Assembly (NCBI GenBank): GCA_011033025.1
Contig: WFMF01000227.1
Coordinates: forward strand, 62,001 to 126,000
Source of the DNA: Beroe forskalii
Lineage: Eukaryota > Ctenophora > Nuda > Beroida > Beroidae
Length of the DNA stretch: 64,000 nt
Direction of reading: 5' to 3'
Shown here: in pieces, positions 13,985 through 55,000 of the stretch
Position numbering within the stretch: position 1 is the stretch's first letter
Layout: every line of letters begins with the position of its first letter
The notes under the pieces: generated by a model
The model's input: the letters and a program-made list of their open reading frames with translations, nothing else
Told to the model about the DNA's origin: nothing
Databases searched by the model: none
Translations under genes and position numbers: made by a program

Positions 13985-14101
13985 AATCCCTAGAGAGGAA
14001 AAATATCCCTAAATGTCGTAGTGTCGTACCCCCATAATTTTGACCCCTGAGGATTACATCTGTCCCATATAATTATAAATTTCTCCCGTAAGGTAGGTTT
14101 C

Positions 14102-17100: not shown

Positions 17101-17379
17101 AGAGAGGAGTATGGTGACGGGGTGAAGTGCTCCCCCTGCCCTCCTGACCTCCTGGTGGAGAGTGGCAGGTGTGTGAGCAGCCTTCAGGAGCTACTCACCA
17201 TCACTGCTAGCCACATGAAGGCTAGCAAGGACACTATCACGATCCTGGCCATCGCCATAGCCACATTGGTGGTTGCTATTGTGTGTGTAGTGATATGCAC
17301 AAAGCGGAAGTTTACAGTCACCTTCACACCTAGGACTAGCAATAACGAGAATATTCAGCTTGTTCCTAACAGTTACTAA
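14102..17379 (+). CDS. Five-SRCR transmembrane receptor, arm 1 copy, one-base frame break near 15,567
   Basis: Two overlapping plus frames (14,102-15,586 and about 15,562-17,379) together encode about 1,090 residues. Order: signal peptide SSLFLLALLCLFTPGSSF; five SRCR domains starting FWKFYIVDKDG, KWSFTLVDRYG, LTFTLVDKTG, RYSFSLVDQD and QWKFRLVAEDG; after each, two cysteine modules of the ephrin-receptor-like/GCC2-GCC3 type (CxxCPxGxxS...CxCP); an extra run of such modules; one membrane helix (ILAIAIATLVVAIVCVVI); a basic 25-residue tail ending VPNSY. Many NxT/S sites fit an extracellular role. The frame break falls at TGCAGGAAGG, where the arm 2 copy has one more base. It may be a sequencing slip or a real lesion. 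SRCR receptors bind microbial or self ligands; the ligand here is unknown. The gene is intronless in this stretch. Confidence 0.8.
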
Positions 17380-17879: not shown

Positions 17880-18330
17880 CTTGGCACCAGCTCACTCTGA
17901 AACTAGCGCACTCCGGGCTCAGGCACCAGTGCACTCTGACGCCAGCGCAATCTGACAGTTGACACCAGCGCAACCAGTGCTTCATTTTGACACTACTTCA
18001 CCTTGATACCGTTTGCCTTGACACCAAGTCTCCCTGACATCATTCTACCTAGACACCAGTAAACCCTGACACCACTTCACCATGACAGCATTTCATCTTG
18101 ACACCAGTTCAACCTGACACTTCTTCACCTTGACACTGTCTTGACACCAGTGAACCCTGACACCACTTCACCTTGAAACTATTCCATCTTGACACCAGTT
18201 CAACCTGACAATACTTTACCTTGACACTGTCTTGACACCAGTGAACCCTGACACCACTTCACCTTGACAGCATTTCATCTTGACACCAGTTAACCTTGAC
18301 ACCAACCTACCTTGACACTAATCTAATTTA
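17880..18330. repeat. TGACACCAG minisatellite (family member 1)
   Basis: About 25 imperfect units of 16-17 bp around the core TTGACACCAGTTCAACC or TGACACCACTTCACC. The array ends just before gene A exon 1. A degraded reverse-complement copy is in arm 2 (about 33,040-33,420), and related arrays with the same GGTGTCA core lie at 38,235-38,690, 46,005-46,135, 54,014-54,482 and 60,640-60,790. Confidence 0.85.
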
Positions 18331-18359: not shown

Positions 18360-21300
18360 ATGTTTGGGGAGTTGCCAGCCAGCACCTCGTCCCACAAGGA
18401 TCTCATCCCCCTCATTGAGAAGCTGATAGAGCTACTCAAGAACTCTGGGGGAATCCATAAATTCGTCCAGGTTAAATTATGTTAGACACGGAGGAAAAAT
18501 AAATTGATGAAAAATAAATTGAAATACAGGGTGTTTCATAAATAGTGTGACTATTTTGAAACTATACTGGAAATTCAATGAAAGATTTAGCATTGATTTC
18601 CAATCTTCTTGTTACGTCAATATGTTTTGAATTTATGCCCAAAAAGTTTCCAGATGTTTGCAATGACATATTTTTTCACAAATTGACCTTCTTGCTAGGG
18701 CATGGTTTCAGAAACTAGAAATTTCCGAATTTGATGCATGCCAAGAGATTTGCTGTTTTGCATACCTTTTAGACACTCTACTAAATTTTGTTGGTCCAAC
18801 CTAGGCTGTATGGTGTCTAAACTATCAAAAATACACATCTAAAGGTTTAAGGTAACACTCTGACTAACTTCACGATGAAAAACATTGATCTGCCGCTGCA
18901 GTATCGAGGTGCCGCACTGACTAGCCACAAACAAAAGAACACTTCATGCGTTTCTAAAGGCATTTTCTACTAAAATTGAGGATGCTAAAGGACAGTTTGC
19001 GAGTTCGAAGTGTAGAATAGTCCATACCATAAAGTATCAGTTTCGTATAGGTGAATCAGTAACTATAAAAACCTTTGTAAGTCCAGAGTCAGGTCCAGCT
19101 TATTCTGTTAACAGACTTTATTGGTGGCGACACTTTGCAACTTACTAGGCAGATAAATATTTTTCATCGTGAAGTTGGTTACAGTATCTCCTTAAACCTT
19201 TAGATGTGTATTTTTGATAGTTTAGACACCCTACAGCCTAAGTTGGACCAACAAAATTGAGTAGAGTGTCTAAAAGGTATGCAAAACAGCAAATCTCTTG
19301 GCATGCATCAAATTCGGAAATTTCTAGTTTCTGAAACCATGCCCTAGCAAGAAGGTCAATTTGTGAAAAATATGTCATTGCAAACATCTGGAAACTTTTT
19401 GGGCATAAATTCAAAACATATTGACGTAACAAGAAGATTGGAAATCAGTGCTAAATCTTTCATTGAATTTCCAGTACAGCTTCAAAATAGTCACATTTAA
19501 TATGAAACACCCTGTAAATGACTATTATAACCTTCAAGTTTGGAGAAATTTGGGGAAAACACCCTTGCGAGTTGTAGATTCGAGTGACAACACGGAGTGA
19601 AATTTTACAGTATGAATTTAATTATATTTTTGTTGTCATGAAATATTTAATTTTTTGACTCGCAGGTTTTGACTGGAGGAGGTTTATCTTTGCTACAAGA
19701 CATGCAGAGTGCAATGAAGCAGCCTGCCGTTATCAGACAGGGCTCTGATAGACCAAGCAAGATCCGACTCATTCTGCCAGGTAAGTCAGAAATTATCAGT
19801 CTCAGTTTCCTTAAATTCCGAAGTTTCATCATGAGATTTGATTTACGAGAATTCCTGTAGAATTCTTGTTAGATTTGGTCTCAAAAGCTTATATAATCTC
19901 CTCACAAGGCAAAATAAACTTCCATATTCATTATTCATGAACATATCTCGGAAGCCAGTCTCCCCTCGTTTGCGAATTGACAAAAATCAAAAGATTATGA
20001 AACTGTGCGCCAAAAATTCCTCCCTAATTCCTCTATACTCCAGGAGTCCTTGAAGACGAGGAGGTTGAGGATGAGAGCAGCAGGAAAGGTATCTTCTCTG
20101 ACTATCACTCCTTAATTCCTCCATGTATTTCAGGAGTCCTGGAGGAAGTTGAGGATGAGAGCAGCAGGAAAGGTATCTTCTCTGACTATCACTCCTTAAT
20201 TCCTCCATGTATTTCAGGAGTCCTTGAGGAGGAAGCTGATGAGAGCAGTAGGAAAGGTATCTTCTCTGACGATCCCAGTGAGGACAGGATCTCCCAGGCG
20301 CACTCCTCCGCAGGAGATCTAGTGGATCTGGTGTACCGGGATGGGAAGTTGTATGACAGTGAGGGGAATGTCGTCAATAACCTCTTCAAGGTCAGTCTTT
20401 CTATTGTACCGACTTTTCGCTAAGGCCCACAGAAAAATATATTTCAAGTTGGAAAGCACTTATTTTTTACTTGAATTATTTTCTTGTGTTTCAGCACGGG
20501 GACATAACATACGGAGACGATGGTAAGTTGTACGATAAGGACGGTAACTTGATCACCGAGCTCTTCCGACCGGACGGTACCTCGTATCCCATCAAGTACG
20601 CGAAGCAGAAGAAGAAGAAACCGTCCAGAGCTAAGGTCACCTGCAGCTAAATAGTAGTGCTGTTATGTGCTGATTTGTCCTCGAATTAGTTCCGACGGAG
20701 GCTACCTGATAAGTTCAACCTGGCACTCAGTATTTTTTTGAAAAAGCTGTTAGTGGGTATCTTCCATCCTCTTAACTAACCATCTTTCAGGTCACCTTCG
20801 CTGACTCGGACCCCAAGAAGCTGGCCATGCGCCAAATGCTGGAAAAGCACACCCTTGAAAATGTGGAGCTGGAAGATCAGCTGAACAGACGCAAGATAGA
20901 CCTTCTGAACAGGGTTATTGAGGATGCAGAGACCCAGAAGAAACAGGCTAAACAGGAGATCCAGGGGCAGTTGAAGGATGCTCTGAAGACAGCAGCTCCG
21001 ACGGATGATAAGAATGCCATCCTGCAGACATTCTCTGAGAAATTAGAGAAGAAGAATGATGAAATCGAGAGGGAGAAGAAGAAAGATATGAAGGATGTTA
21101 TGGATAAGCTGGCTGATGAGATTATGGAAAGGAAGACAACATTGAGGAAGAAGCAAATCAATGAGGTAACATTCATTTTATTTTGTTTATTTTCAGCCGT
21201 CATGGTTTCTGCAATCTTCTGCAATCGCCCCCTTATTTGAATCATGACCACATCCATTCCCATGATTTATTCAAAGATGTATTTGATATTTTCGATTCGG

Positions 21301-24300
21301 ATCTTTCACCTTTTTAATAATCTCACCCCTTTTAACCCCTCTTCAGATCGACACTGCTCACCCCTTTTAACCCCTCTTCAGATCGACACTGCTCACCCCT
21401 GTTTACCCCCTCTCCAGATCGACACTGCTCACCCCTTTTTACCCCCTCTTCAGATCGACACCGCCGGCCTCTCCTCTGAAGTAGACACAGCCCTGCCCCA
21501 CCTCCGACACACCGTCTCCCCCTCCCGGTCCAAGATAACGGAGGACCTGGAGCAGCTAGCTAAACAGCAGGAGATCCTGGCGGCAGAGATGAAGAAGTAC
21601 CTAGCCGAGGATATGTCACGTGCTGCCATGATGATGGATGGGGACATGAAGTGAGATTTTTCAGATGGGTGTTTCTTATTTGAATGGGCATTTCTTTGAA
21701 TGGTCATTTCTTGAATACCTAGTCATGAAAATGATACTTCATGATAGATTTCAGACTTCTACAATCTACATGAAGTACGTAAGATACTCAAATAAACACT
21801 CTAAATAATCTTGATCAGTTTATCAAGTTGATAACTTACTCGCATGATCTCAATCCACAGGAAAGAGTTAGATCGTGAGATGGAGGAGAGAGTGCGTCAC
21901 ATGTCCACCCTAGGATCCCAATCCCAGCGGGAGATCTCCAAGAAGATCTCCCAGAGTCGGGAACAGGGCTCTCAGACCCGGATAGGTGTAGACAGGGAGA
22001 AGATGCAGGCTAGTGATCGACCATTTCTCAATGAATCCGGTCTCGGTTTCAGCTAAAAACGCCCGTTTAACCGATATTTCGATTTTGCTTCGGTCAACCG
22101 AACGTTTCCCTAAACAGTTGATTGTAAAATCAAAATATTCTGTTACGGTTTTCTGTTTGCTAAAAACGCCAAGTTAACCGGTATTTCGCTTCAGTTAACC
22201 GGTCGTTCTTTAATGCAGGCTAACATGAAGAAGAGAATGCAGCAGAAGCAGCAAGATAGGAGGAGGAGGAGTGGGGAAAGTGTCAGCACTGAGGTATGTG
22301 ATGGATAAGCAAATACATGATATATTCATTTGAATATCTGTACAATTTTTGAGCGAATAGAATTTTCGTTTTCCTTACTTTTCGTTTTCCCTACTTTTCG
22401 TTTTCCTTATCTTTCGTTTTCCCTACTTTTCGTTTTCCCCTATTCCGTTTTCCTCTATTCCGTTTTCCTCTATTCCGTTTTCCCTACTTTCCTTTTTCCT
22501 CAATTTCCTTTTCCTCTATTCCGTTTTCCCTACTTTCCGTTTTCCCCAGGCACTGGGGGAGTACGCCTCAGAAGGGGACGTGTACCAGACTGACCTGCCT
22601 GAGGATGTCAGGGCGAGGGAGGGTCTCAAGCAGGACATACAGCTGGAGGCGGACATGACGGACGCCATGGTGGCCATGTTGGATGTGGTGGACGAGTGTC
22701 AGAGAGATGAGGAAAATGCAAGGGTTAGAGGAAATATAGAAATATAATTACAGTCTAATTACAGATTGAAAGTAATTTCAGACCGCCTGCTTAGAAAATT
22801 GGGATGAAATAAGCTTTTTTGGCAATTCATAAAATTACACGATATTATCAAGTTTCATGAAAATGAGACAATGGGAAGTGGATAAAACTGGCATTTAAAC
22901 TCCTCCTCCTCTACCAGGTGCTGAGGGATCTAGAGAAGAGTCTGCAGGGTAAGTTAGCTGGGGAGAGCAGTGCTATCATAGCAGCTTACAACGCCAGCGT
23001 GGGGGCCGTGTCAGAGAAACTAGGCAAGGAAAAGGGCAGGGCTAATGACAGGGTGGCAGAGAGACTGGCAGCTAGGAAGAGGATGAGGGAGGAGTTGTAC
23101 AACAAACAGGTCAACGAGGAAGTGGTGCATGAAGTGGGACTAGCAAAGATCGGTCCTTTCATTACTGCAGCATTGTGTCATTATATTTGATATATTTCTT
23201 TTAAGCTTTGTGAGTTTTCGTGGAATAAGGTGTGTTTAACTTGAACGAGGATTATCAGATGGTATTCGAAAGCCTCTGACCTTGTAATCTATCATATCAG
23301 TCAAACCTACCCTATCACCACAAAGTCTTGACTTCCTATTAACATCTTTATCAGATCGGACTCTCTGAAAGTGATGTTATGGAGGAAGTAAACGCTCTCT
23401 CAGACAAGATAACATCCCAAAGTGAGCTGGATCTAAAGGACAAGAAGGAGGAACTCCTCAAGAAACTTGATGAGAAGCGGACATCCCTCGTCAATGATCT
23501 TGCCAAGGTTTGATACTCCGGTGTTATTCTCTTAGTGGCTCAGTGAGTTTGAGATTCGATCGTAGCGTTTTTGAACCAAGCATAATCTTCTCTTTCGTCT
23601 TGATCTCCTTTAATACCTATCTCTCTACTTTAGAAATTTTTCAGGAACATGAGGAGTCTGAAGAGAGAGACTCCCAGGAGGCCAGTGAGCGACACCAGTC
23701 CATCTCCTCCTCCCTTGATGACAAAGTGGCTGCTGTCTTAGCTGCCCGGAGAGCTCAGTTCAAGAAGGAAATGGCAGAGAAGGAGGGTTCTCTTCAGGAA
23801 GATGAGAAGGAGAGGCTGCTAGCAGAACACGCGGCAGAGTTGGCTAAATTAGAGAAGACTCTAGCGGGACAGAAAGATAAGCAGTTGCACAGTTTGAAGG
23901 CAAGGATGGAAGAAAGGATGAAGTTGAAGGCGAAGAGGAGGAAAGAAAGTGGGAAGACTGAGTTACAGAGCATTGAAGAAGCAGAAGAAAAAGAGAAGAA
24001 TAAGTTGGAGGATGAAGAGATAAGGAAGAAGGAGAAAGCTGCGTTATCCACAGTAGTCCATGACATGGTGGATGTTGGGATGGACGCTAAAGCACAGTCT
24101 CTCATTCACCATCTTCTCAACCAGCGACATGTCAAGGAACGGATTGTTCTGGAAAAGCAGCAGAAATCCAACATGAAGACTGCCCTGCAGAAGACTAAGA
24201 GTGACTTCCTGATTGAGAGGGAAGCTGAGAGAGATGAGCTGCTGGCCCATCAGGAGCGAGAAATAGAAGCTGTGATGGAGGAAGCACTGACCTTATCACC

Positions 24301-33778: not shown

Positions 33779-36700
33779 TTAGTAACTGCCAGGTACAAGT
33801 TGGATATTCTCGTGATTGTCAGTCCTGGGTGTGAAGGTGACTGTAAACTTGCGCTTTGTGCATACCACTACACACACAATGGCAACCACCAATGTGGCTA
33901 TGGCGATGGCTAGGATCGTGTTAGTGTCCTCGCTAGCCTTCAAGTGACTGTCTTTACTCTGCAACTTATTGAGGAGGTTAGCAGTGATGGTGAGTAGCTC
34001 CTGAAGGCTGCTCACACACCTACCACTCTCCACCAGGAGGTCAGAGGGGCAGGGGGAGCACTTCACCCCATCACCATACTCTTCTCTGGGACACAGCACA
34101 CAGCTGTAATTACTCCAGGAGTGCCCTAACGGACACGTCCCACACGCCCCAGAAGCCATGGGGGCTACAGTACCAGAGGGGCACTGTGTACAGTTCACTG
34201 TGTCCCTGTCAGAGTAGTGGTTGGCAGGGCAGTAGTCGCAGGTCTTGCTGGTGGCGTTCCAAGTGCTGCCTGGACTACACAGACAAGAGAATGATTCTGC
34301 GGGGGAAGTGCTGCCCTGGGGGCAGGGGTCGCACCTCAGGAACTGGAAGTGTGTGTCGAAGTGGAAGGTGGTGTTGGGGGGGCACGTCACGCAGGAGAGG
34401 TACACGCCCATCAGGGAGTTGAGACAGTGGGGGGCGGGGCCCCGCAGGTAGGAGCAGTCTGCGAAGGAGTTGGCTGAGTTGCTGCAGCTCATGTTCGACA
34501 TCACTACGGGGTATTCCTCCTGAATGGCCCAGTCGTGCTGGTATACCTGGGTGTCCTGGCCGATGAAGCCCAGCTCCAAACAGCTAGCCCGAGCAAAGTT
34601 CAGGAAGGGTGCAGCTGAGAGATCACATGAGACAGGTAGCCCCGTCTCGTAGCCGTTATCCACCACTAGCAAGCCCTGGCTCTCTGCTGGGTTTCCGTCC
34701 TCTGCTACCAAGCGGAACTTCCACTGCAGACACTGGTGGTGCTCCGAGTCCCAGTAGAAACCTGCCTCAGAGCACTCACAGGCATCAGAACCCTGTGTTG
34801 AGGTGGAGTTGGGAGGGCAGGAGACACAATCCCCAGCATCAGAGTTCCAGTAGGTGTCTGTAGGACAGACACACAGCAGTGAGTTGGGGCGTGAGGAGGC
34901 CCCTAGGGGACATGGCACACACTTCTGCAGCTCCTTACTGTAGAAGGAGTTGTGGGGGCATGAGGCGCAGGCGAGGAATATGTCCTCATCGTGCGTACAG
35001 TCGTGGAGGGTGGAGTAGCTGCAGTCACTGTAGGAGGAGGCGTTGTCAGCACACACGAACTCGTCCAGCAGGATGGGGTAGGTGTGCTGTACACTCCAAC
35101 TCTCCCTCCCAAACCACCAACTCTGGAAGCCAGGGAAGCCCATGTCCTGGCAGTTGACTCGCGCAGTGGCGTCGCTGTACCGGTCATCACACACCGTGCC
35201 CTGGCCTTGGCCGTTAGTGACCAGCAGCAAGCCGCTCGTCATGTCCTGGGACAAGTCCTGGTCCACGAGTGAGAAGCTGTACCTCAGACAGTAACGAGAC
35301 AGGGCGTCCCAGTAGAAGCCCTTCCCGCACTCGCAGGAGGTGGCTCCAGGGCCTGAGGTGGAGTTGAAGGGACATTTCAAGCACCCCGCACTGGCAAAGT
35401 GCCAGTAGTGCTGCGCAGGACACTCGCAGAACTGGGAGTTGCGCCTTGAGGTGGTGTTCCCGGGGCAGTCAGTGCATGTGATCCAGGAGTTTTTATTATA
35501 GTAGGTGTTCTCAGGGCAGGAGGTACACTGAAGGAACAAATCTGTTTCATTCCCGCACCCGTACAAGTAACTGGAGCCAGTGAAGAACGAGCAGTCCGCC
35601 ATCGAGCTGGCGCCCTCGCTGCATGTCAGGCTGCGAATGAGGCTCGTATAATTGCCTTGTATACCCCAGTCGTCATGATTAAACTGCTTATAGCACCCAA
35701 CGTAGCCCATGGTTCTGCAAATCAGGTTATATTCAGTGGTGACATGAGAACTGTGAACTGAGTAACCACACACCTTGCCCTGGACGGCCCCATACCTCGC
35801 TAGGACCAGGCCTGAGGAGCCCCCCTCCCTGCCGGTCTGGTCCACCAGAGTGAAGGTGAGGGGGGTGCAGGAGCCTGCCGCGCCGTCCCACACGCGCCCC
35901 GTGGCGCACTGGCAGGCCAGGGCGCCGTACTGTGAGGTGGCGCCCGCAGGGCACGGCGCGCAGCGGCCCCCCGCCCAGTAGTGCCCGGCGGGGCAGTAGC
36001 AGTAGGTGGAGTTGGGTTTGGAAGGGGCGTGGTCGGGGCACGCCACACACCCCTGGGGCGTGTGATATGTGTTCGCAGGGCACCCCCCTGTGCTGCACTC
36101 CAAGTATATGTCTCCGGCCCATCCATTGCATAATAATAATGGGTTAGCTCCTTGGGTGGCCACCCAGAAACGGCAATCCTCGTAGGTCGTGGCTGATTCT
36201 GGGCAGGAAAACCTGCTCATTAGGACCTTGAAGCGTTCCTGGACAGCCCATCTCCGCCGTTTTGAAGCGCGGGACCAGCTCCTGAAGCCGGGAAATCCCA
36301 TATCCTGACAGTTAACTCTGGCGGTCTCATTGGTATAATACCGGATATCATCATTGCACACAGTCCCCTGCGCTCGTCCGTTATCAGCAACAAGCAACCC
36401 ACTCCGCATCCCTGGGTTGCCATACCGGTCCACCAGAGTGAAGGACCACTTGAGACACATTCCTGAGTCGAGCTCCCAGTAAAGGCCCTGAGGACAGACA
36501 CACGCCGTGGCGCCAGGCTGCGAGGTGGAGTTGCCAGGGCACGCCATGCAGGTGTGCAGGTGGGAGTTCCAATAGTGCATGGCCTGGCACTCGCACGCCA
36601 CACTGTAGTTACCTCGCGAGGAGGCCCCAGGAGGGCACGCCTGGCACGCCTCCAGCTGGTTGTTGTAGAAGTGGTCCGCGGGGCAGGCGAGGCCCTCACA

Positions 36701-37096
36701 GGTTAGCAGGACGTCGTCTGCGTGGGTGCAGTCCCCGGGCAGCGGCTGATAGTATCTGCAATGCTGGAAGGAGGAGGTTCCACTGTTCCCGCAGTCCATG
36801 TGGGACAAGGCGAAGGGGAAGGTGTGCTGTATGGGCCAGGTGGCGTTCCCCGCATGCCACCACTGCCGGGCTGTCTTGTAACCAGCGTCTTTACACATCG
36901 TAATGGCACTCCCGTCCCCATACCCGAAGTCGCTGTATTTGACAGCGCACACGGTGCCCCGGACGCGTCCGTTGTCTGCTATCAGCAGCCCCGAGTTGGT
37001 GCCGGTCTGCCCGTCCTTGTCTACGACGTAGAACTTCCAGAAGGAGGAGCCCGGAGTGAAGAGACAGAGCAGAGCGAGGAGAGGGAGGGACGACAT
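33779..37096 (-). CDS. Five-SRCR transmembrane receptor, arm 2 copy, intact
   Basis: Uninterrupted 1,105-residue ORF with the same order as the arm 1 copy: signal peptide (MSSLPLLALLCLFTPGSSF), five SRCR domains beginning near residues 19, 215, 414, 610 and 795, two cysteine-rich ephrin-receptor-like modules after each, a membrane helix (ILAIAIATLVVAIVCVVV) and a short basic tail ending VPGSY. Relative to arm 1, the linkers and SRCR 4 and 5 are almost identical. SRCR 1-3 differ in clustered blocks, for example CAVKYSDFGYGDGSAITMC against CAVTDDDFAIGKGSGITMC. The juxtamembrane region here has about 11 extra residues (NLLNKLQSKDS). Cysteines are conserved through the variable blocks. The intact frame shows that the break in arm 1 is local. 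Likely a cell-surface recognition or scavenger receptor. Confidence 0.9.
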   Translation of the reverse strand: MSSLPLLALLCLFTPGSSFWKFYVVDKDGQTGTNSGLLIADNGRVRGTVCAVKYSDFGYGDGSAITMCKDAGYKTARQWWHAGNATWPIQHTFPFALSHMDCGNSGTSSFQHCRYYQPLPGDCTHADDVLLTCEGLACPADHFYNNQLEACQACPPGASSRGNYSVACECQAMHYWNSHLHTCMACPGNSTSQPGATACVCPQGLYWELDSGMCLKWSFTLVDRYGNPGMRSGLLVADNGRAQGTVCNDDIRYYTNETARVNCQDMGFPGFRSWSRASKRRRWAVQERFKVLMSRFSCPESATTYEDCRFWVATQGANPLLLCNGWAGDIYLECSTGGCPANTYHTPQGCVACPDHAPSKPNSTYCYCPAGHYWAGGRCAPCPAGATSQYGALACQCATGRVWDGAAGSCTPLTFTLVDQTGREGGSSGLVLARYGAVQGKVCGYSVHSSHVTTEYNLICRTMGYVGCYKQFNHDDWGIQGNYTSLIRSLTCSEGASSMADCSFFTGSSYLYGCGNETDLFLQCTSCPENTYYNKNSWITCTDCPGNTTSRRNSQFCECPAQHYWHFASAGCLKCPFNSTSGPGATSCECGKGFYWDALSRYCLRYSFSLVDQDLSQDMTSGLLLVTNGQGQGTVCDDRYSDATARVNCQDMGFPGFQSWWFGRESWSVQHTYPILLDEFVCADNASSYSDCSYSTLHDCTHDEDIFLACASCPHNSFYSKELQKCVPCPLGASSRPNSLLCVCPTDTYWNSDAGDCVSCPPNSTSTQGSDACECSEAGFYWDSEHHQCLQWKFRLVAEDGNPAESQGLLVVDNGYETGLPVSCDLSAAPFLNFARASCLELGFIGQDTQVYQHDWAIQEEYPVVMSNMSCSNSANSFADCSYLRGPAPHCLNSLMGVYLSCVTCPPNTTFHFDTHFQFLRCDPCPQGSTSPAESFSCLCSPGSTWNATSKTCDYCPANHYSDRDTVNCTQCPSGTVAPMASGACGTCPLGHSWSNYSCVLCPREEYGDGVKCSPCPSDLLVESGRCVSSLQELLTITANLLNKLQSKDSHLKASEDTNTILAIAIATLVVAIVCVVVCTKRKFTVTFTPRTDNHENIQLVPGSY

Positions 37097-37196
37097 GAAA
37101 CCTACCTTACGGGAGAAATTTATAATTATATGGGACAGATGTAATCCTCAGGGGTCAAAATTATGGGGGTACGAAAGTTAGGGATATTTCTTCCTC

Positions 37197-38234: not shown

Positions 38235-38690
38235 TCGAGTTTAGTGTCAAGGTAGATTGGTGTTAAGGTAGATTGGTGTCAAGATAAACTGGTGTCAAGA
38301 TGAAACAGTGTCAAGGTGAAGTGATGTCAGGGTTCACTGGTGTCAAGACAGTGTCAAAGTAAAGTAGAGTCAGGTTTAACTGGTGTCAAGATGAAATACT
38401 GTCTTGGTGAAGTGGTGTCAGGGTTTACTGGTGTCAAGGTAGTGCCAAGGTGAAGAAATGTCAAGGTGAAGTAGTGTCAAGGGTAAGTGGTGTCAAGGTA
38501 GACTGTTGTCAGGGTGAGTTGGTGTCAAGGCAAACTGGTATCAAGGTGAAGTAGTGTCAGGGTAAAGTGCCAAACTGGTGTCAAGGTAAAGTAGTGTCAA
38601 GATGACGCAATGTCAGGATTAAATACTGGTGTCAAAGTGAAGTTGTGCCATGGTAAATTGGTGACAAAGTAAAGAGGCTAGGAGTCCATA
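38235..38690. repeat. GGTGTCAAG minisatellite (family member 2)
   Basis: About 26 imperfect 16-17 bp units such as GGTGTCAAGGTGAAGTA and GGTGTCAGGGTTCACT. Same family as the array beside gene A, in opposite orientation. It lies directly after the stop codon of gene B. Confidence 0.85.
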
Positions 38691-38700
38691 AAAGTAGTTG

Positions 38701-41700
38701 TCAGGCCTCATGAAGCCAGCACTTGTTATAAAACGTAGTCATACCGTGAGTTTTCATACCGTGAGTTTTCATACCGTGAGTTTTGATAGTCCACGACACG
38801 GGCCCCTTGCCACTTAGCCACAGTTTGGCCTCCAAGCCACACAACTCAGCCCGTTCCCGGATATACTCCACACTTGACACCTTCTCATCTGTTGCTTGGA
38901 ATCTGAAACACATAAATAATAGATAATAAATGCTTATGTATTAAGTCATCACACGAACTAAATAAAAGATAAGTTCACTGGCAGCGATTGAAGAAAATGT
39001 GAAAATTTCGGCACCCCAAATTCTACCTATAAGCTAAAGCTCAGATAATCGCTTTATTCATCAGTCTTTTTACAATAAACACTTCCCTAACTCCCAGCTA
39101 ATTGCTGAGTAAAATTTAAAAACTCCCCAAATTCTCAGTGACATTCAAAAACCCCAATATGCCCGCGTACGAAAAATAGGCGGTTAATTTCAACAATATT
39201 TGGCGGCGCACACAGTGTAAATGACGGCATTACGACCGCCTATTTATCCTGAGCGCATAGTAATTTACCTGTTGATATTATAACTTCCGATATCGCGGCG
39301 CCATGTACCTTCTAGTTCTAACTGCTGAGTAAAATCTATAAATGGCAAAACCCCACTCAAGTGGCGACTAATAATACCTGTTGGTGAGTTGGACGCTGAT
39401 ATCTGTCTGCAGCCTCTCCGTCATGGCTTCGTGTCTCTCTCTGGCAGCTTCCACCCCCTGGGCTGTGCTCTTCTCACACTTCTCAAGGTACTTCACAAGC
39501 TCGGTTTCTACCTGGCAGATAAGTAGATAAGGGTCTGTTTCTATAGGGGCAAATCCGTTATGGTTTTGCTTTGTATGCAACATATGAACTGCTTATTGGA
39601 GTTAATTGGTCTGCTTTTGCAAATGGGAATAAGATGAAGAGTTCATATCAACTCGAGCTTAATCAGTAAACCAGATTGCTATCTTCCTGATGCAATCTCC
39701 CTTTAAAACTAACCTTCTTCATGTGTCTGTGGACCACCTCGGGCACCCTCCCGAACACCTTACTCAACTCCGCCTCCCTCGTCCTTTCCTCCTCGTCATT
39801 CTCCGTCACCATGGCAACCGGCACGTGCGGCAACTGCTGAGCAAACACCAGCAACATGTCCCCTCGTCTCTTCTGCTCCTGCAGAATAAATAACAATGAT
39901 CACATGGTACATTACAATCACCAATAATCTGCTCCTCTAAATGGTCTTATTTACTAAAGATGGTTTTATTTAAGTTGGACAACCAATATAAGATAAACAA
40001 TTATTGACTGGAACTTGATATCTTCGTGTAAAACTTCCTTAGGAATCCACCCATAAATTTAATAGTATTAAGTAACTTGTTGCTTGTTTAAAACCTTGAG
40101 ATGGTTATCAGTTAGAAGCTGAGTATCCCGCTCTATGGCTGCTAGCATCTCGTCCACATCGCGGTTAAACTCCTCCATCTCATGTAAAGTTTCAGGAAGC
40201 GCATCTAAGATGATCGTCTTCATCTGCAGCAGGGTGGTGTTGAGGTGTTCCTCGGTAGCCCTCTGTCTCCTCCAGAACATGGATCTACTCATCAGCTCCT
40301 CCTCCAGCATGGAGATCTGGATTGGGGAGCCCCGGGTAGAGGGAGGCGGGGTGTCGCCCATAGTGATGGGGACCACCAGCTTGCTCTGGGGGTCCAGCCG
40401 GGCTCCACAGACAGGACCAACCTAGGGAGGGGAGGGGGTTAGGGACTGGTTACTGGTAACTGGGGGGGGGGGGAGCCCCGGGTGGAGGGGGGCGGAGTGT
40501 CGCCCATAGTGATGGGGACCACCAACTTGCTCTGGGGGTCCAGCCGGGCTCCACAGACAGGACCAACCTAGAGAGGGGAGGGGGTAAGGGACTGGTTACT
40601 GGTAACTGGGGGGGAGCCCCGGGTAGAGGGGGCGGGGTGTCGCCCATCGTAATGGGGACCACCAACTTGCTCTAATGCTCTGGGGGTCCAGCCGGGCTCC
40701 ACAGACAGGGGGGACTGGTTACTGGTAACTGGGGGGGGGAGCCCCGGGTGGAGGGGGGCGGGGTGTCGCCCATAGTGATAGGGACCACTAGCTTGCTCAG
40801 GGGGTCCAGCCGGGCTCCACAGACAGGACCAACCTAGGGAGGGGAGGGAGTTAGGGACTGGTTACTGGTAACTGGGGGGGGGGGAGGGAGCCCCGGGTGG
40901 AGGGAGGCGGGGTGTCGCCCATAGTGATGGGGACCACTAGCTTGCTCTGGGGGTCCAGCCGGGCTCCACAGACAGGACCTACCTGGAGAGGGGAGGGAAT
41001 TAGGGACTGGTAACAACTAGAAGGGGGATGGGCCTGCAAGGGCCTAAGCGGCACCCAGGTGAGGGAGCTACAGGCCGGAGACGAGCGCTGCCAGGCTCCC
41101 AGATGGGGAGAGAGTCCCGCTCTTCCCTTTTAAGGGACTGGTTACTGGTCAGACTTTAGAGACTGGTTGTGCTTACTGGTAAGAGGCTGGCTTGGGACTG
41201 ATAAAGAGCATTCAGGGGGTATCCAGTAAGTCTTCCATTTAGAAGTAAAGTGAGAAAGTGCCTATTTTGTATTGGGATTGGGTTGCCAACTTCTGATTCT
41301 CATTCAAACATCTCAATTCTAAACCACGTTACCAAACAAATAATAGGTGCCAGAGTTGAGACTTGGAATTGTAACTTGTAAGGAATTCAACTTGAATTCA
41401 GTACATATAGGTACAATATTTGAATGTTTATTAGCCAATATATCAAGATTTTACCTGTCCACTGTTGGTATCGAGCGCCAGTGCTCCCAATGAAATAGGA
41501 ACTGGTCCCCCACCCTTGGGATCCTCCATACTTCCACCCACAGGAACCAGCAAACCAGACTCACTGTCTCGGGCTGCGTCCAGTATGGGAACCTGATATA
41601 GGAACTTGCTAGGAATCTGGGGTCGTGTTGAGAAACACACTTGGTATAATATATGCCAACACTTGACACAATAGCTGTTCGAAAAAATAAAAAAACAACA

Positions 41701-44700
41701 GGGAAAGCTCGAAAAATCTGCCAATTATCCAAGATTCCAAGCTCTTTCATTTTACGCATGACGCATCCAAAATACGAGCATTTAAAAGGAACCAGAAGAA
41801 TTATGATATCATCATCTTGTGAATAATTTGGCCGGGGACTGGACCTACGATAACTCAAAATCAAATTATCATCTTATTCAGGAATACACAGATGTAACAT
41901 TACCTCGAGACCCGTTCCAGCTGGATCAGCGATCCACCCTCCAATGAGGAGAGGCAGGAGCTGCCCAGTGGATCTGTGCTCCATGTTCCCTGGACACCCT
42001 CCCGTCTCCTGAGGAAAACAAGAGAATTTAGGGAACAAGAAAATTGAAGGAAAAAGAGAATTGAGGAAAACAAGAGACTTTAGGACAACAAGAGAATTGA
42101 GGAAGTCAATAGAATTGTGGAAAACAAGAGAATTGAGGAAAACAAGAGAATTGAGGAAAACAAGAGAATTGAGGAAAGCAAGAGAATTGAGGAAAACAAG
42201 AGCCTTGAGGAAAACAAGAGAATTGAAGGAACAAGAGAATTGAAGAGAGCATGAGAATTAAGGAAAGCAAGAGAATTGAGGAAAACAAGAGAATTGAGGA
42301 AAGCAAGAGAATTGAGGAAAACAAGAGAATTGAAGGAGCAAGATAATTGAGAAAAGCAAGAGAATTGAGGAAAACAAGAGAATTGAAGGAACAAGATACT
42401 TGAGGAAAGCAAGAGACTTGGCATGAGCTCGAGAAACAAGAGAATTGAGGAAAGCAAGAGAATTGAGGAAAACAAGAGACTTGACATGGGCTCGAGAAAC
42501 AAGAGAATTGAGGAAAACAAGATACTTGAGGAAAGCAAGAGACTTGACATGGGCTCTAGAAACAAGAGAATTGAGGAAAGCAAGAGAATTGAGGAAAACA
42601 AGAGACTTGACATGGGCTCGAGAAACAAGAGAATTGCAGCACCTGCAGAACCACGGAGTGCTCTATCTCCCTCTGCAGCTGATGCTCCTCCAGCAGTCTC
42701 GCTGTCTTACGCCTCATCCGGGCAGAGTACACCTCATCCACCAGAGCTGACAGCTTGGTGGACAGCTCGGTGATGTCTCCGTGTTCAGCAGCAAGCTCCT
42801 TGATGGTGTCGATGGTCTCGATAACGGCGAGTTCAGTGGCCATTTCAGTGCTGGTAAGCAGGGTGAGTGTAGTTGGAGTGTCCACGAGAGGTGAGGATGT
42901 CGTTAGGGGTGGAGTTCAGATACAAACCTGCAGATTAATAAGTATCAGAGTATTAGAGATGGGTGGAGCAAGTGGTTAGTGGTTGGATGGAAACAGAGAT
43001 TGTTCAACATAAGTTAAAACTTTAAAAGATCACTCAATAATGTTGAAATACAATTAATGAAGTCACACAAACGTCCAGTACCGCAGGTGAAGAGATTGAG
43101 TGAGGAGTAAGGGTCGCTGAAGGGCTCGCCCGGAACTGCCACCTCGTAGCCATCACTAGGCCGCCCTCCTACTGGCTCTATCTCCCCCGTGTCAGGGTGG
43201 ATGGAGATGCCCATTATGGGCACGGACACGCCCAGGGAGTGGTCTGTCATCATGCCCCCGATCTGTATGGGAACCCTGGACACAGTGGGTTAGCAGGTCA
43301 TGAAAATTAGGGGAATGGTACACGCACAATAGGTGTAAATGATGAAATTTAACCAAGATATTATTCGCTCGAATCATTAAATATCAGTATTTCAATCCAC
43401 TCAGCTCTCATCCACTACAAGGCAGCCGCTAACCTGAGCCTGGTAACAGGGTGGATGTAAGTGCCAGAGACAGGCAGCAGTTCGTTGGTCTGCGGGTGGA
43501 TGGTGACTGCCAGCAGCGGTGCGAATAACCCACTGTCCGGATCAGGGATGGGGGCTTCGTACTGAAGATCAGACTTCTTGCTGACCTGCCCAGATAAGTG
43601 AAGTTATAACCAGAAACAGCTGACTGGAAATTATCACTTTATTTCCGAGATTTATCTCGATTTGAGAATTTGCCCTCAGAAGTGCTAAACTTTGAACTCG
43701 CACCCCAGGCCACGCCAAAAACTCAGAGCTGCAATTTGCTGAACCTGACCTGTTTAAGCTGCGTGGGGACTGCCACGCCGCCTGGTGTGGTAGGATGGGA
43801 GATGTAAGGGATGAGAGGGGTGGTGGGACACATGGTCTGATGAAACTAACCTGTTTGAGCTGAGTGGGGACTGCCATGCCGCCTGGTGTGGTAGGATGGG
43901 AGATGTAAGGGATGAGAGGGGTGGTGGGACACATGGTCTGATGAAACTAACCTGTTTAAGCTGAGTGGGGACTGCCATGCCGCCTGGTGTGGTAGGATGG
44001 GAGATATAAGGGATGAGAGGGGTGGTAGGACACATGGTCTGATGAAACTAACCTGTTTAAGCTGAGTGGGGACTGTCATGCCGCCTGGTGTGGTAGGATG
44101 GGAGATGTAAGGGATGAGATGGGTGGTGGGACACATGGTCTGATGAACTCAACCTGTTTAAGCTGGGTGGGGACTGCCATGCCGCCTGGTGTGGTAGGAT
44201 GGGAGATGTAAGAGATGAGAGGGGTGGTAGGACACATGGTCTGATGAAACTAACCTGTTTAAGCTGAGTGGGGACTGTCATGCCGCCTGGTGTGGTAGGG
44301 TGGGAGATGTAAGGGATGAGAGGGGTGGTAGGACACATGGTCTGATGAAACTAACCTGTTTAAGCTGAGTGGGGACTGCCATGCCGCCTGGTGTGGTAGG
44401 GTGGGAGATGTAAGGGATGAGAGGGGTGGTAGGACACATGGTCTGATGAAACTGACCTGTTTAAGCTGAGTGGGGACTGCCATGCCGCCTGGTGTGGTAG
44501 GATGGGAGATGTAAGGGATGAGAGGGGTGGTGGGACACATGGTCTGATGAAACTAACCTGTTTAAGCTGAGTGGGGACTGCCATGCCGCCTGGTGTGGTA
44601 GGGTGGGAGATGTAAGGTATGAGAGGGGTGGTGGGACACATGGTCTGATGAAACTAACCTGTTTGAGCTGAGTGGGGACTGCCATGCCGCCTGGTGTGGT

Positions 44701-45612
44701 AGGATGGGAGATGTAAGGGATGAGAGGGGTGGTGGGACACATGGTTTGATGAAACTAACCTGTTTGAGCTGAGTGGGGACTGCCATGCCGCCTGGTGTGG
44801 TAGGATGGGAGATGTAAGGGATGAGAGGGGTGGTAGGACACATGGTCTGATGAAACTAACCTGTTTGAGCTGAGTGGGGACTGCCATGCCGCCTGGTGCG
44901 GTAGGATGGGAGATGTTAGGGATGAGAGGTGTGGTAGGACACATGGTCTGATGAAACTAACCTGTTTAAGCTGGGTGGGGACTGCCATGCCGCCTGGTGT
45001 GGTAGGATGGGAGATGTAAGGTATGAGAGGGGTGGTAGGACACATGGTCTGATGAAACTAACCTGTTTAAGCTGAGTGGGGACTGCCATGCCGCCTGGTG
45101 TGGTAGGGTGGGAGATGTAAGGGATGAGAGGGGTGGTGGGACACATGGTCTGATGAACTCAACCTGTTTAAGCTGGGTGGGGACTGCCATGCCGCCTGGT
45201 GTGGTAGGATGGGAGATGTAAGGGATGAGAGGGGTGGTAGGACACATGGTCTGATGAAACCAACCTGTTTGAGCTGAGTGGGGACTGCCATGCCGCCTGG
45301 TGTGGTAGGATGGGAGATGTAAGGGATGAGAGGGGTGGTAGGACACATGGTCTGATGAAACTAACCTGTTTAAGCTGAGTGGGGACTGCCATGCCGCCTG
45401 GTGTGGTAGGATGGGAGATGTAAGAGATGAGAGGGGTGGTGGGACACATGGTCTGATGAAACTAACCTGTTTAAGCTGAGTGGGGACTGCCATGCCGCCT
45501 GGTGTGGTAGGATGGGAGATGTAAGGGATGAGAGGGGTGGTAGGACACATGGTTTGAGCGTGGTCTGGAACTATCACCAGCTGAGCAGTGCTAGGGTCGA
45601 ACATCACGTTGC
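38701..45612 (-). CDS. Gene B: uncharacterised protein with Pro/Gly repeat motifs and coiled coils
   Basis: Minus-strand exons with good sites: 45,467-45,612; 43,434-43,585; 43,275 to about 43,080; 42,643-42,850; 41,904-42,008; 41,455-41,592; about 40,095-40,421; 39,714-39,878; 39,378-39,511; 38,701-38,902 (stop). The first half carries a loose repeat in which a hydrophobic segment is followed by HPxT(N/G)E and PVxG: VTIHPQTNELLPVSG, ISIHPDTGEIEPVGG, SESGLLVPVGGSMEDPKGG, LDPQSKLVVPITMGD. The second half is coiled coil (ATELAVIETIDTIKELAAEH, MLEEELMSRSMFWRRQRA, ARERHEAMTERLQTDIS). I do not recognise the family; upstream exons above 45,612 are not found and the join 43,080/42,850 is uncertain. 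Two exon boundaries are expanded into tandem arrays, and the last exon ends in three copies of KTHGM. Confidence 0.7.
38740..38784 (-). repeat. Three 15-bp copies at the end of the last gene B exon
   Basis: AAAACTCACGGTATG on the minus strand occurs three times, coding KTHGM each time. Each copy contains a possible donor (CACG|GTATG), so an exon-end plus donor seems to have been tripled. Confidence 0.75.
39168..39248. mobile_element. Short MITE with AAATAGGCGG terminal repeats (copy 2)
   Basis: Starts AAAAATAGGCGGTTAATTTC and ends ACGACCGCCTATTTATC, matching the ends of the element at 12,050-12,138. The internal sequence differs. It lies in a gene B intron. Confidence 0.5.
40321..41000 (-). 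repeat. Five copies of a gene B exon start with its acceptor
   Basis: Units of about 125-150 bp. Each reads on the minus strand as a pyrimidine tract and acceptor (CCCTCCCCTCCCTAG), then coding sequence for GPVCGARLDPQSKLVVPITM and GDTPPPSTRG. Only the copy at 40,421 downward continues into the long exon. The others, at about 40,475-40,570, 40,617-40,715, 40,741-40,838 and 40,890-40,985, break off after GTRG-like residues. Confidence 0.8.
41015..41115 (-). repeat. Dispersed repeat, copy 1
   Basis: On the minus strand it includes GCGCTCGTCTCCGGCCTGTA, GCTCCCTCACC and GGCCCATCCCCCTTCTAGT. The same words in the same order occur on the plus strand at about 56,815-56,935. No RNA polymerase III boxes or ORF are evident. 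Confidence 0.6.
42010..42640 (-). repeat. 18-bp minisatellite forming a gene B intron
   Basis: About 33 units of GAGAATTGAGGAAAACAA (plus strand) with GAAAGC variants and interspersed GACTTGACATGGGCTCGAG. On the minus strand it is TTCTCTTGTTTTCCTCAA, and the intron acceptor at 42,009 (TTCTCTTGTTTTCCTCAG) is one unit with a single change. The whole intron is thus an expanded acceptor tract. Confidence 0.85.
43740..45555 (-). repeat. 101-bp tandem array of about 18 units, each with a gene B exon end and donor
   Basis: Near-identical units. On the minus strand each holds CCTACCACACCAG, then GGCATGGCAGTCCCCACTCA and GCTTAAACAG followed by a donor gttagtttc. The first unit (top, 45,550) is continuous with the exon beginning 45,612, and its donor at 45,467 joins in phase to 43,585. 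Because 101 is not a multiple of three, using a later donor would shift the frame. Many open frames (MCPTTPLIPYISHPTTPGG) are by-products of the array. Units vary at few sites, for example GCTTAAACAG against GCTCAAACAG. Confidence 0.9.
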
Positions 45613-46004
45613 CTGTAACAATGCCCAGGTAACTTTTCAACATATTAGTGTATTACAATCAAATTTGAGCTCCTTATAAAGACGTCTTTACATGGGAGTC
45701 ATACTAATTATAGAGACTTAACTAAGCTAAGCTATGCTAAGCTCAGCTAGTAAGCTATGATAAGCTGCTCCACCCAACACCGGGCAGAAGTCATTTTCCT
45801 GAAACCCCAGTCCCCTGCGACGGGATGTCTGTCTGAATCTTTCGCAGATCCATGCATGAAACATGGAAGGGGACAAAGCCTCTGCTGAACTCTGTGGGGC
45901 GATAATGGACATATCTGAGCTCTCATACGTGATGTAGCACAACTTGAATGCCTTTGTTTTGGAAATTCTAACTCAAAGTTTTTCCACGATTTAATGATGG
46001 GTTC
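45613..46004. other. No confident gene; possible upstream end of gene B
   Basis: Minus-strand open frames at 45,727-45,942 and 45,747-46,124 have no recognisable domain and the second runs into a minisatellite. Earlier gene B exons may lie here, but none can be supported. Confidence 0.3.
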
Positions 46005-46135
46005 TGACACCAGTTTTACGGAAACCCAGTATTTACTGACACCAGTTTTTACTGACACCCAGTTTTTACTGACACAAGTTTTTAATGGCACCCAGTTTTC
46101 ACTGACACCAATATTTACTGACACCAGTTTTGACT
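46005..46135. repeat. ACTGACACCAGTTTTT minisatellite (family member 3)
   Basis: About seven units of 16-18 bp such as TTTACTGACACCAGTTTT. The TGACACCAG core is that of the arrays beside gene A and gene B. Confidence 0.75.
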
Positions 46136-46479
46136 GTGTAGATTAATCAATACTCAATCAAACACTTATAAAATTTATGTGATTTTCCCAGTGAATATGT
46201 AAGGTGAATGCATATTATGCTCACTTGAAGGTGCAGAAGTGAGTCGATTGGCACTTCGGCAATAGCTTGGATTTGCACGCTGTCACGTGCAGCAAAAAAG
46301 CACCCAGGCGCGGCGTGATGAACCGCGCCATAAAAGGTCGAGACACGTCCTGGGTCGTCCTGTGAGTACTGAGTATATGCTGTAGCTCCACAATAGATTT
46401 ATGACAATATAACTCATACCGGGTGGTCCAAAAAGAACGTTACAAAAGGCCTCCTGACACACGGTACCCCGTCCACTTT

Positions 46480-46845
46480 TGATGGACAGGTTGTTGACAG
46501 GCGAATGCCAGGTTCGCAGACAGGTCAGGTACAGGTTCTGATCTGAATTAAAACAGGTTTCAACATTTTAAAAGAAATTTCCGACGGGTTCTTGACGGGT
46601 TCTTGACGGGTTTTGGACAGGATTTAGACAGGTTCTTGACGGGTTGACAGGTTCTCGACAGGATTTGGACGGGTTCTAGATAGATTTTAAAGAAATTCTA
46701 GACGGGTTTTGGACGGGTATTTATGCAAGTTTGGACAGGTTTTGGACGGGTTTTGGAAAGATTTAAGACAGTTTTTGACAAGTTTTGAACAAGTTTGGTC
46801 AGGTTTTGAACAGATTTTGACGGTTTTGGTTCATTTGATGTAATA
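46480..46845. repeat. GACGGGTTTTGGACAGG minisatellite
   Basis: About 20 imperfect units of 12-18 bp alternating GACGGGTT and GACAGGTT cores. Just upstream, ACCGGGTGGTCCAAAAAGAA near 46,419 resembles the end of a DNA transposon, but no partner end was found. Confidence 0.6.
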
Positions 46846-52001: not shown

Positions 52002-55000
52002 GTATCCACGAAACGGACTACACCTCAACTCTCGTGGAACCCAACAACAATCTCTCCGTGAAGAGAATGATGTACCACACGAACAACAAGACAACCCCAA
52101 AACAACCCCCAATGAACCCCCAGACCCGCTCAACTGCCCATGGTAACAGGGGTGTTGCTATGACAACAGCAGCAGGGGGTACTACCCCAGCCAGATCAGC
52201 TAACAATGCAGCTACAGACCGGTGGAATAACTCCGTGCTCAATGGCATTATAAACCTTGTTTCAGTATGTATATCCCTGTGGCAGAACACTGCTGATCTG
52301 CCACGCTCAGCGTGGCGACAAGTCGGCTTCTCCAGACGTGATTTTGGGGAAAGATGAAAGGTGAAATTAATCAAAATTGATTATAATCACTAAAGCTTTG
52401 GACGCAAAAGTTCGATACAACATTCATGAAATTGGCAATTTCACCAAATTTCGTCGTTATATAAATACACAATTTTAAATGGCACGACGTGGCCATGGAA
52501 TCGATGTTGGGTCTGAAAATGTCGTCATTGCTCAAACAGTGACTGAAATCGTTATTAGACTATTAGAGTGAGGACGTGATTTCAGATCACGTCTGCACTC
52601 TCAGATCAGCGTTTTACCACTCTCAGCGCGGAGACGTGATTTGGAAATCACGTCTCCGCGCTGAGCGTGGCAAAATGCTGATCTGAGCGTGCAGACGTGA
52701 TCTGAAATTACGTCTACGCTCTGAAAGTGAAGACTGGATTTCAGATCACGTCTGCACTCGCATATCAGCGTTTAACCATTCTCGGCGCGGAGACGTGATT
52801 TGAAAATCACGTCTCCGCGCTGAGCGTGGCAAAATGCTGATCTGAGCGTGCAGACGTGATCTGAAATCACGTCTACTCTTTGAAAGTGAGAAAACACTGA
52901 TCTGAGTTTGAAGACATTACCTGATGGCTGCAAAACTTTTCGGTGCGATTGACCATGACATTTGAACGGTATTTTGATTTCATTTGTTTATAAATCTTTG
53001 CTTAATTACACACATTATTCAAACACAAGGAAAATGTTTAAAAGTACATTTAAAATTATCATCTTGTTGCGACGCGAGATGCCGTATTTAAGAAGCAAAT
53101 GCTTGCTCCATTATTTTCAGCAAGGCTGTCACTGAAAATACCTTGGCTTTTTAATTTTGATGTCATGGCATGTGAACCATACACCGCAACGTGTAATCAC
53201 CATAAACAAAACAATGATCAAAACACACTACCTAAGTAGGTTCATGCCATACTGTGAGTCGATACAAAATTGATATAAGGTAAAATTTCGGGAAAATTGA
53301 AAAAAATATGCCGCCAATGGAAGACGTGATTTGGTACTCCTGAAATTTGGGATCGGCGAGTTGCTGACTGTGTTCTGTCACTGGGATGTATATTGTAAAC
53401 GTATGATGTTAGAAGTTTCAAAGTGAACTTTAAAATTTTGTCCAATCACATTGTGGATTGTAGCGATGGAAACATATTTCTCACAGCTCTAATCTTCTTC
53501 TAGTTCTTATTCCCATTTTTACCATTTTTAGGTATCTCGACTATTCGTAATGGAGGGGTAGGTGTGAGTAGTGGCACCAGGAAACGAGCCTCTCCAGTCC
53601 AGTTTGATGTCAAACCCACCCCGCCTACTGACAGGAAATGTTTGGCAAATATTAGGCCTGGATTGGCTTCCGTTTTTGCCAAGGATAATCCTGTTTCACC
53701 GAGGCATCGGTAAAAACCTGCCCTCATTGACGAACATGCCCTCGGTTGATCATTGACTATGATGGGTGTTAATATATAAATTTGCTAATTGGGGTTTAAT
53801 TTTCGGGGTTTATGGGAGTTCTTTGGCGTTGTCCCTCCACAAAAAGTGACTTTACACAGGAAACGGCCGCGATGTAGCTCTGAACGAGGTGGGAAGGGTC
53901 TCCGTCATTTCTCCAGCAAAGTGTGTGAGAAGGTGAAAAGCAAGGGAGTGACAACCTACCTGGAGGTTTCAGAGGAGCTGGTGGAAGAGTTCTCGCAGCA
54001 GAGTGCTATGACTGGTGTCAACGTGAGTTGGTGTCAATGTGGGCTGGTGTCAATATCAATATGGTTGGTGTCAATATGAGTTGGTGTCAATGTGAGTTGG
54101 TTTCAATGTGAGTTGGTGTCAACGTGAGTTGGTGTCACCGTGAGTTGGTGTCACCGTGAGTTGGTGTCAACGTGAGTTGGTGTCACCGTGAGTTGGTGTC
54201 AACGTGAGTTGGTGTCACCGTGAGTTGGTGTCACGGTGAGTTGGTGTCAACGGGAGTTGGTGTCAATGTGAGTTGGTGTCAACGTGAGTTGGTGTCATTG
54301 TGAGTTGGTGTCAATGTGATTTGGTGTCATTGTGAGTTGGTGTCAACGTGAGTTGGTGTCAATATGGTTGGTGTCAATGAGAGTTGATTTCGATGTGAGT
54401 TGGTGTAAACTTGAGTGGAGAGTGGGTATCAATGTGAGTTGGTGTCTATGAAAGTTGGTGTCAACGTGAGTTGGTGTCAATAAATACATCCAAATTTATT
54501 TTCCACCATCCAAGCTCAAACTCCTCCCCCAGGGCTGCACCCCATCTCCTTCCATCGCTCAATCATTCGACGTTAAGAACATCCGGCGTCGAGTGTACGA
54601 TGCCCTTAACGTGCTGTGTGCTATGAACATCATCAGTAAGGATAAGAAGGAGATCCGGTGGATTGGCCTGCCTACCAACTCACTGCAGGAGTGCAGACAG
54701 CTAGAGGTGAGGACTCCGTAACTAAGGTATGTAGACAACGAGATATATTCATTGGGAATGAAAGTTGGGTATTTTACGGAAAAAAATTCCATGACCATAT
54801 TTTCGAGTGGCGCGAATCGCGCCACATAAAATCTCAATATGACGTCATCATAATACGTTAACATGGATATCTCGTGATATTTCAAAATCCCCACATTTTC
54901 GTACCCCCAAAATTTCCTGTTTTAAATACCATCCATAGAGTCAACTTAAAATATGATGTTTGCTCTACGTACTTACGTAATGTGGTTTTCCTTCTCAGAA

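Follow-up and report, generated by a model that had tools for sequence, protein, structure and literature searches.

An 18-unit minisatellite across an exon-intron boundary in Beroe forskalii and its probable splicing from the first donor

Structure of the array and the surrounding gene

We analyzed a 64,000-nt stretch of the Beroe forskalii genome (contig WFMF01000227.1, positions 62,001 to 126,000; hereafter the window), in which a minus-strand gene carries 18 similar units of 101 bp in a row. The array is, with good probability, a minisatellite that expanded across an exon-intron boundary, a so-called mirage, and that is tolerated because splicing from the first donor would render all of the remaining units intron. 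Most likely, then, the additional units merely fill an intron and do no harm. The points counted for this reading were the geometry of the array, the presence of a one-unit copy on contig C199, the low and wholly synonymous divergence of the exons between the two copies, the reading frame obtained from donor 1, the identity of unit 1 with the array consensus together with the divergence of the far-edge unit 18, the changed donors in 5 of the 18 units, and the same architecture in amphioxus (PMC3087553).

TRF detected 18.0 head-to-tail copies at 43740-45557 (96% matches, 0% indels, score 3331), in agreement with the 18-copy, 101-bp array reported in the preliminary description of this DNA. In the register used here, unit 1 lies at 45553-45453 and unit 18 at 43836-43736 on the minus strand, and all 18 units are spaced by exactly 101 bp. 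The period, as already pointed out, is not a multiple of three. Each unit is composed of 87 nt of exon end and 14 nt of intron, the consensus on the minus strand being 87 nt that read TMCPTTPLIPYISHPTTPGGMAVPTQLKQ, followed by GTTAGTTTCATCAG. The pairwise difference between units was 4.3% on average (range, 0 to 10.9%), and the copies are alike enough for the recent expansion proposed earlier. The coding tail GGMAVPTQLKQ was exact in 15 of the 18 units, the exceptions being GGMTVPTQLKQ in units 13 and 15 and GGVAVPTQLKQ in unit 18. The donor CAG|GTTAGT was found in 13 units and was changed in the other five (GTTGAG in two; GTTGGT, GTCAGT, and GTCAGG in one each). The statement that every unit has the same tail and the same donor therefore holds for most units and fails as a rule for all. 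The upstream AG attributed to each unit was indeed present in all 18, where it opens a 32-nt stretch (CACACCAG|GC in 17 units, CGCACCAG|GC in one). A second AG, in TCAG|ACC, was present at 16 of the 17 unit junctions; at the corresponding place, unit 1 starts with CAAACC, as does the unit on C199.

A 146-nt exon (exon 1 of the pair; 45467..45612, minus strand, ending in NVMFDPSTAQLVIVPDHAQTMCPTTPLIPYISHPTTPGGMAVPTQLKQ) runs into the array, unit 1 supplying its final 87 nt; an acceptor at 45613 would mark the 5' end of this exon. The first donor, CAG|GTTAGT at 45461..45466, is probably functional, judging from the same donor in the one-unit C199 copy and from its complementarity to U1. Counted by eye, it pairs with the U1 5' end ATACTTACCTG at 8 of 9 positions. 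A search of the genome for U1 gave 10 matches over the cut-off, and this 5' end was present in seven of the eight U1 loci examined, indicating that donors of the GTTAGT type are ordinary here. Exon 2 of the pair (152 nt, 43434..43585, minus strand, beginning with VSKKSDLQYEAP) joins donor 1 in frame with zero added residues; its 3' end at 43434 was taken from the window sequence, and the comparison with C199 covers 129 nt of it. Based on that comparison, the two exons would be separated by a 1,881-nt intron (43586..45466) that contains units 2-18, consistent with the earlier count of about 17 decoy units within one intron.

A scan for the motif of the protein revealed no further exon upstream of 45612 in the frames covered. 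Of nine pieces searched against Pfam, the six from the array-bearing gene were assigned to no family, the sole match being insignificant (13.8 bits, E 0.054). A joined three-exon piece had no counterpart among solved structures at E up to 1. When the joined two-exon protein was compared with the assembly, all 21 matches (E ≤ 0.001) lay on contigs C278 or C199.

The comparison with the one-unit copy supports a start of the array by tandem duplication of a 101-bp stretch straddling the boundary (87 nt of exon end and 14 nt of intron); the array would then have grown through further duplication and exchange between units. Donor 1, the only donor attached directly to the whole exon, would be joined with the acceptor at 43586/43585, so that units 2-18 would leave the pre-mRNA as part of the 1.9-kb intron. 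Expansion would be tolerated because any copy number leaves the mRNA unchanged while the first donor is used. By contrast, a 101-bp repeat wholly within an exon would break the frame.

A one-unit copy on a second contig

The assembly (216 Mb, 1,134 contigs) was searched with one unit, and 19 matches were obtained, of which 18 fell in the window and the remaining one on contig C199. The latter belongs to a second copy of the locus that corresponds to window positions 46446 to 43457, lacks the additional units, and is truncated within exon 2. It contains one unit, with the exon at 75616-75761, the donor GTTAGT, the same start of exon 2, and an intron of 407 nt. The claim that the array duplicates an exon end together with its splice donor was borne out by the same exon and donor in this copy. 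In the shared exon sequence, 272 of 275 sites matched without a gap, and the three changes (two in the 146 nt of exon 1 and one in the 129 nt common to exon 2) were all synonymous. Among the aligned non-coding sites, which comprise the intron and an upstream side that is itself probably intron, 949 of 1,001 matched and 52 differed, in addition to 252 gapped columns. The difference in divergence between exon and non-coding sites was significant when pooled (Fisher p 0.0013). Taken apart, exon 2 differed from the intron (p 0.0001), and exon 1 gave p 0.15 against its own upstream side, in part because 46446-46173 is without mismatch between the copies. These comparisons support the predicted exons, their frame, and donor 1.

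Since the C199 copy has one unit with the same exon and donor, it likely preserves the starting structure of the locus. One unit would then be the starting state of the array, contraction from more units being the alternative. The copy numbers seen were 18 in the window and 1 on C199, the latter in a truncated copy that may be something other than an allele; polymorphism in array length, as the preliminary description anticipated, is likely. The intron (407 nt) is already present in the one-unit copy, so that the array only lengthens an existing intron and creates no new one inside a former exon.

The single unit on C199 also bears on the idea that the array is an assembly or haplotype artefact and that the true unit number is small or different, which would be compatible with any of the other explanations discussed here. 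There is a precedent in amphioxus, where the draft-genome version of one mirage was apparently misassembled (PMC3087553). Against it, 15 of the 18 units carry two or more differences from the consensus, unlike simple assembly stutter, and the array is internal to its contig, where its flanks (43000-43740 and most of 45556-46446) are mostly found only once or twice in the assembly. We regard an artefact as very unlikely.

Next to the C199 copy lies an ORF that, by its look, we take to be Helitron-like. Capture of the gene piece by such an element was considered, but other copies of that sequence begin at least 41 nt past the break in exon 2 and give no sign that the gene piece lies within the element; the C199 piece is thus called a truncated copy only. 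In the window, a dispersed repeat starts at 46446-46600, and among the 40 matches listed, 36 were other places alike to it at 84-100%. The C199 copy also runs into sequence similar to this repeat.

Variation among units and candidate splice routes

Unit 1 was identical to the array consensus, and unit 18, at the far edge, was the most different (7 of 101 sites), with 0 to 5 differences in the other units. Neighboring units were no more alike than distant ones; a lag of 10 gave a permutation p of 0.036, although this lag was picked after the table had been seen. Variable sites were less frequent in the exonic part (13 of 87) than in the intronic part (6 of 14; p 0.023), and in units 1-17 the counts were 12 and 5 (p 0.057). 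The distinct exonic variants were synonymous in 8 of 14 cases against 4.7 expected (p 0.051; in units 1-17, 7 of 12, p 0.075). Weighted by copy, 25 of 33 were synonymous against 12.6 expected (p 0.015), and among variants in at least two copies, 5 of 7 against 2.6 expected (p 0.067). All of these p values for synonymy are rough, because the tests assume independent variants, an assumption violated by exchange between units, and several tests were run.

Reduced exonic variation and a synonymous lean are unexpected for wholly free copies unless these exchange with unit 1, and both were counted against the mirage reading. We read this pattern, in which the lean is weak, as the outcome of exchange between the copies and unit 1, whose coding role limits the variants that can spread, because donors are not conserved among the copies. 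The same lean would result if some copies were translated. This possibility corresponds to a model in which the units serve as alternative cassettes of 87 nt (29 codons), running from TCAG|ACC to CAG|GT with at least one unit skipped, and give variable in-frame repeats of 29 residues. The length of 87 nt is a multiple of three, and when chains of 0 to 17 such exons were built in order from unit 2, all 18 were open and in frame. The AG that such cassettes require is found at 16 of the 17 junctions, with CAAACC in its place at the start of unit 1 and in the C199 copy, and the lean of the copy variants would reflect selection on translated units. However, adjacent 87-nt exons leave an intron of 14 nt, so that this route needs the skipping of units; spliceosomal splicing is not known for introns as short as 14 nt. 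Moreover, the pyrimidine fraction in the last 25 nt before the AG of TCAG|ACC is 0.48, and the donors are changed in 5 of the 18 units. Splicing of a subset of the 18 units as 29-codon cassettes is therefore unlikely; if it did occur, the number of repeats in the protein would vary both by splice choice and by array length.

The preliminary description had offered three outcomes, namely use of the first donor, skipping of the copies as 32-nt microexons, or variable products. The first is the best supported, given that donor 1 is in frame, that five donors are changed, and that microexon chains stay open and in frame solely at lengths of 0 and 3. We computed the 18 read-through products in which donor k is used and all earlier units are kept, and these were open and in frame with exon 2 only at k = 1 and k = 4. 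Among the routes computed, splicing from donor 1 is the simplest that keeps the frame.

Microexons would have the required signals, as CACCAG|GC is followed by the donor 32 nt on in all 18 units, leaving introns of 69 nt, and the resulting variable or frame-shifted products could lower expression via nonsense-mediated decay. The acceptor opening the 32-nt stretch has a pyrimidine fraction of 0.68 in its last 25 nt versus 0.56 for the acceptor of exon 2, and these decoy acceptors are thus not obviously weak, a point that was counted against the mirage reading. Nevertheless, when 0 to 17 microexons were joined in order from unit 2, only two of the 18 chain lengths, 0 and 3, were open and in frame, and regular use of mostly out-of-frame chains would ruin a protein that, judging from its exons, is under constraint. 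We consider this route improbable, a little more so than cassettes. Also counted against the mirage reading was the last donor, which lies 164 nt from the acceptor of exon 2 and could be favored in an intron-definition mode.

Recursive removal of the intron in steps of 101 nt would produce the same mRNA as direct splicing from donor 1, with each AAACAG|GTTAGT serving as a zero-length exon site. Since AG adjoins GT in each unit, its use as an acceptor would regenerate a donor, and 13 of the 18 units keep CAG|GTTAGT. No clear pyrimidine tract precedes this AG, however (0.52 in the last 25 nt), and stepwise removal seems highly improbable. Direct splicing from donor 1 across the array, as in the mirage reading, remains our preferred account.

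Comparable repeats and other features of the window

Minisatellites straddling exon-intron boundaries were named "mirages" in amphioxus, where they show length instability in the Adh3 and globin genes, and Adh3 data together with RT-PCR of globins suggest that they are regularly spliced (PMC3087553). The array shares with the amphioxus examples (Adh3, BflGb6, and BflGb9) tandem repeats across a boundary, many with AG/GT signals. In amphioxus, the copy number varies between haplotypes of BflGb6, and a homogenized interior is accompanied by a divergent edge unit (PMC3087553). Likewise, the unit described here holds an exon end, a splice site, and adjacent intron, the boundary being backed by the C199 copy and the use of the site being inferred by us. 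It differs in having a 101-bp unit that is repeated 18 times on the donor side, whereas the two BflGb6 haplotypes have six and three units, each of 150-160 bp (PMC3087553).

Three further reports provide partial parallels. Human internal tandem repeats at boundaries, from segmental duplications, are also minisatellites that alter gene structure and differ in number between copies of a locus, but they average four units of 30 bp, may form new introns, and often remain within an exon of the transcript (PMC2812944). The 31-bp VNTR of human CBS at exon 13-intron 13 is listed as spanning the exon end and the following intron, with a unit shorter than that of the array (PMC1395315). In a potato RdRp gene, a tandem duplication across a boundary likewise supplies splice signals, but there the duplication created a new intron (PMC4974935), whereas the array here lengthens an existing one. 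Among the titles and abstract openings retrieved, mostly of papers available without subscription, none announced a boundary-straddling array of greater length. As a long example of a known but little-studied kind of repeat, the array is well accounted for.

Three smaller acceptor-side arrays were found in the window, with boundaries that rest on reading frame and splice consensus. In the same gene, 40324..41011 (minus strand) contains five copies of the start of exon 40421-40071, the apparent last exon, and the end of the preceding intron. These copies are spaced by 149, 118, 148, and 146 bp, and four of the five keep the junction AG|GT(A/T)GGTCC. In a neighboring gene on the plus strand, an acceptor-like site CAG|GAGTCCT with an exon start occurs in three copies at 20041-20274 (84-bp unit, spaced 90 and 84 bp), and the frame is open throughout. 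The same neighboring gene has, at 21322-21461 on the plus strand, four copies of a pyrimidine tract, an acceptor-like site, and ~12 nt of exon (CAG|ATCGACAC), with a 36-bp unit spaced by 35-36 bp. Should these boundaries be correct, arrays across splice sites may be common in this genome. The 18-unit array and its one-unit second copy offer a natural system for asking which of many consecutive, near-identical donors the spliceosome selects, and how arrays of this type might give rise to new exons or introns.

Two closely similar long coding stretches lie in opposite orientation at 14051-17379 (plus strand) and 33779-37147 (minus strand). The former is listed as two ORFs in different frames, and the latter contains SRCR and ephrin-receptor-like domains (Pfam). 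Finally, TRF detected a 16-bp motif like TGACACCAGTTTTTAC in arrays at four places (17980-18319, 38244-38566, 46004-46136, and 54013-54480), with both orientations represented.
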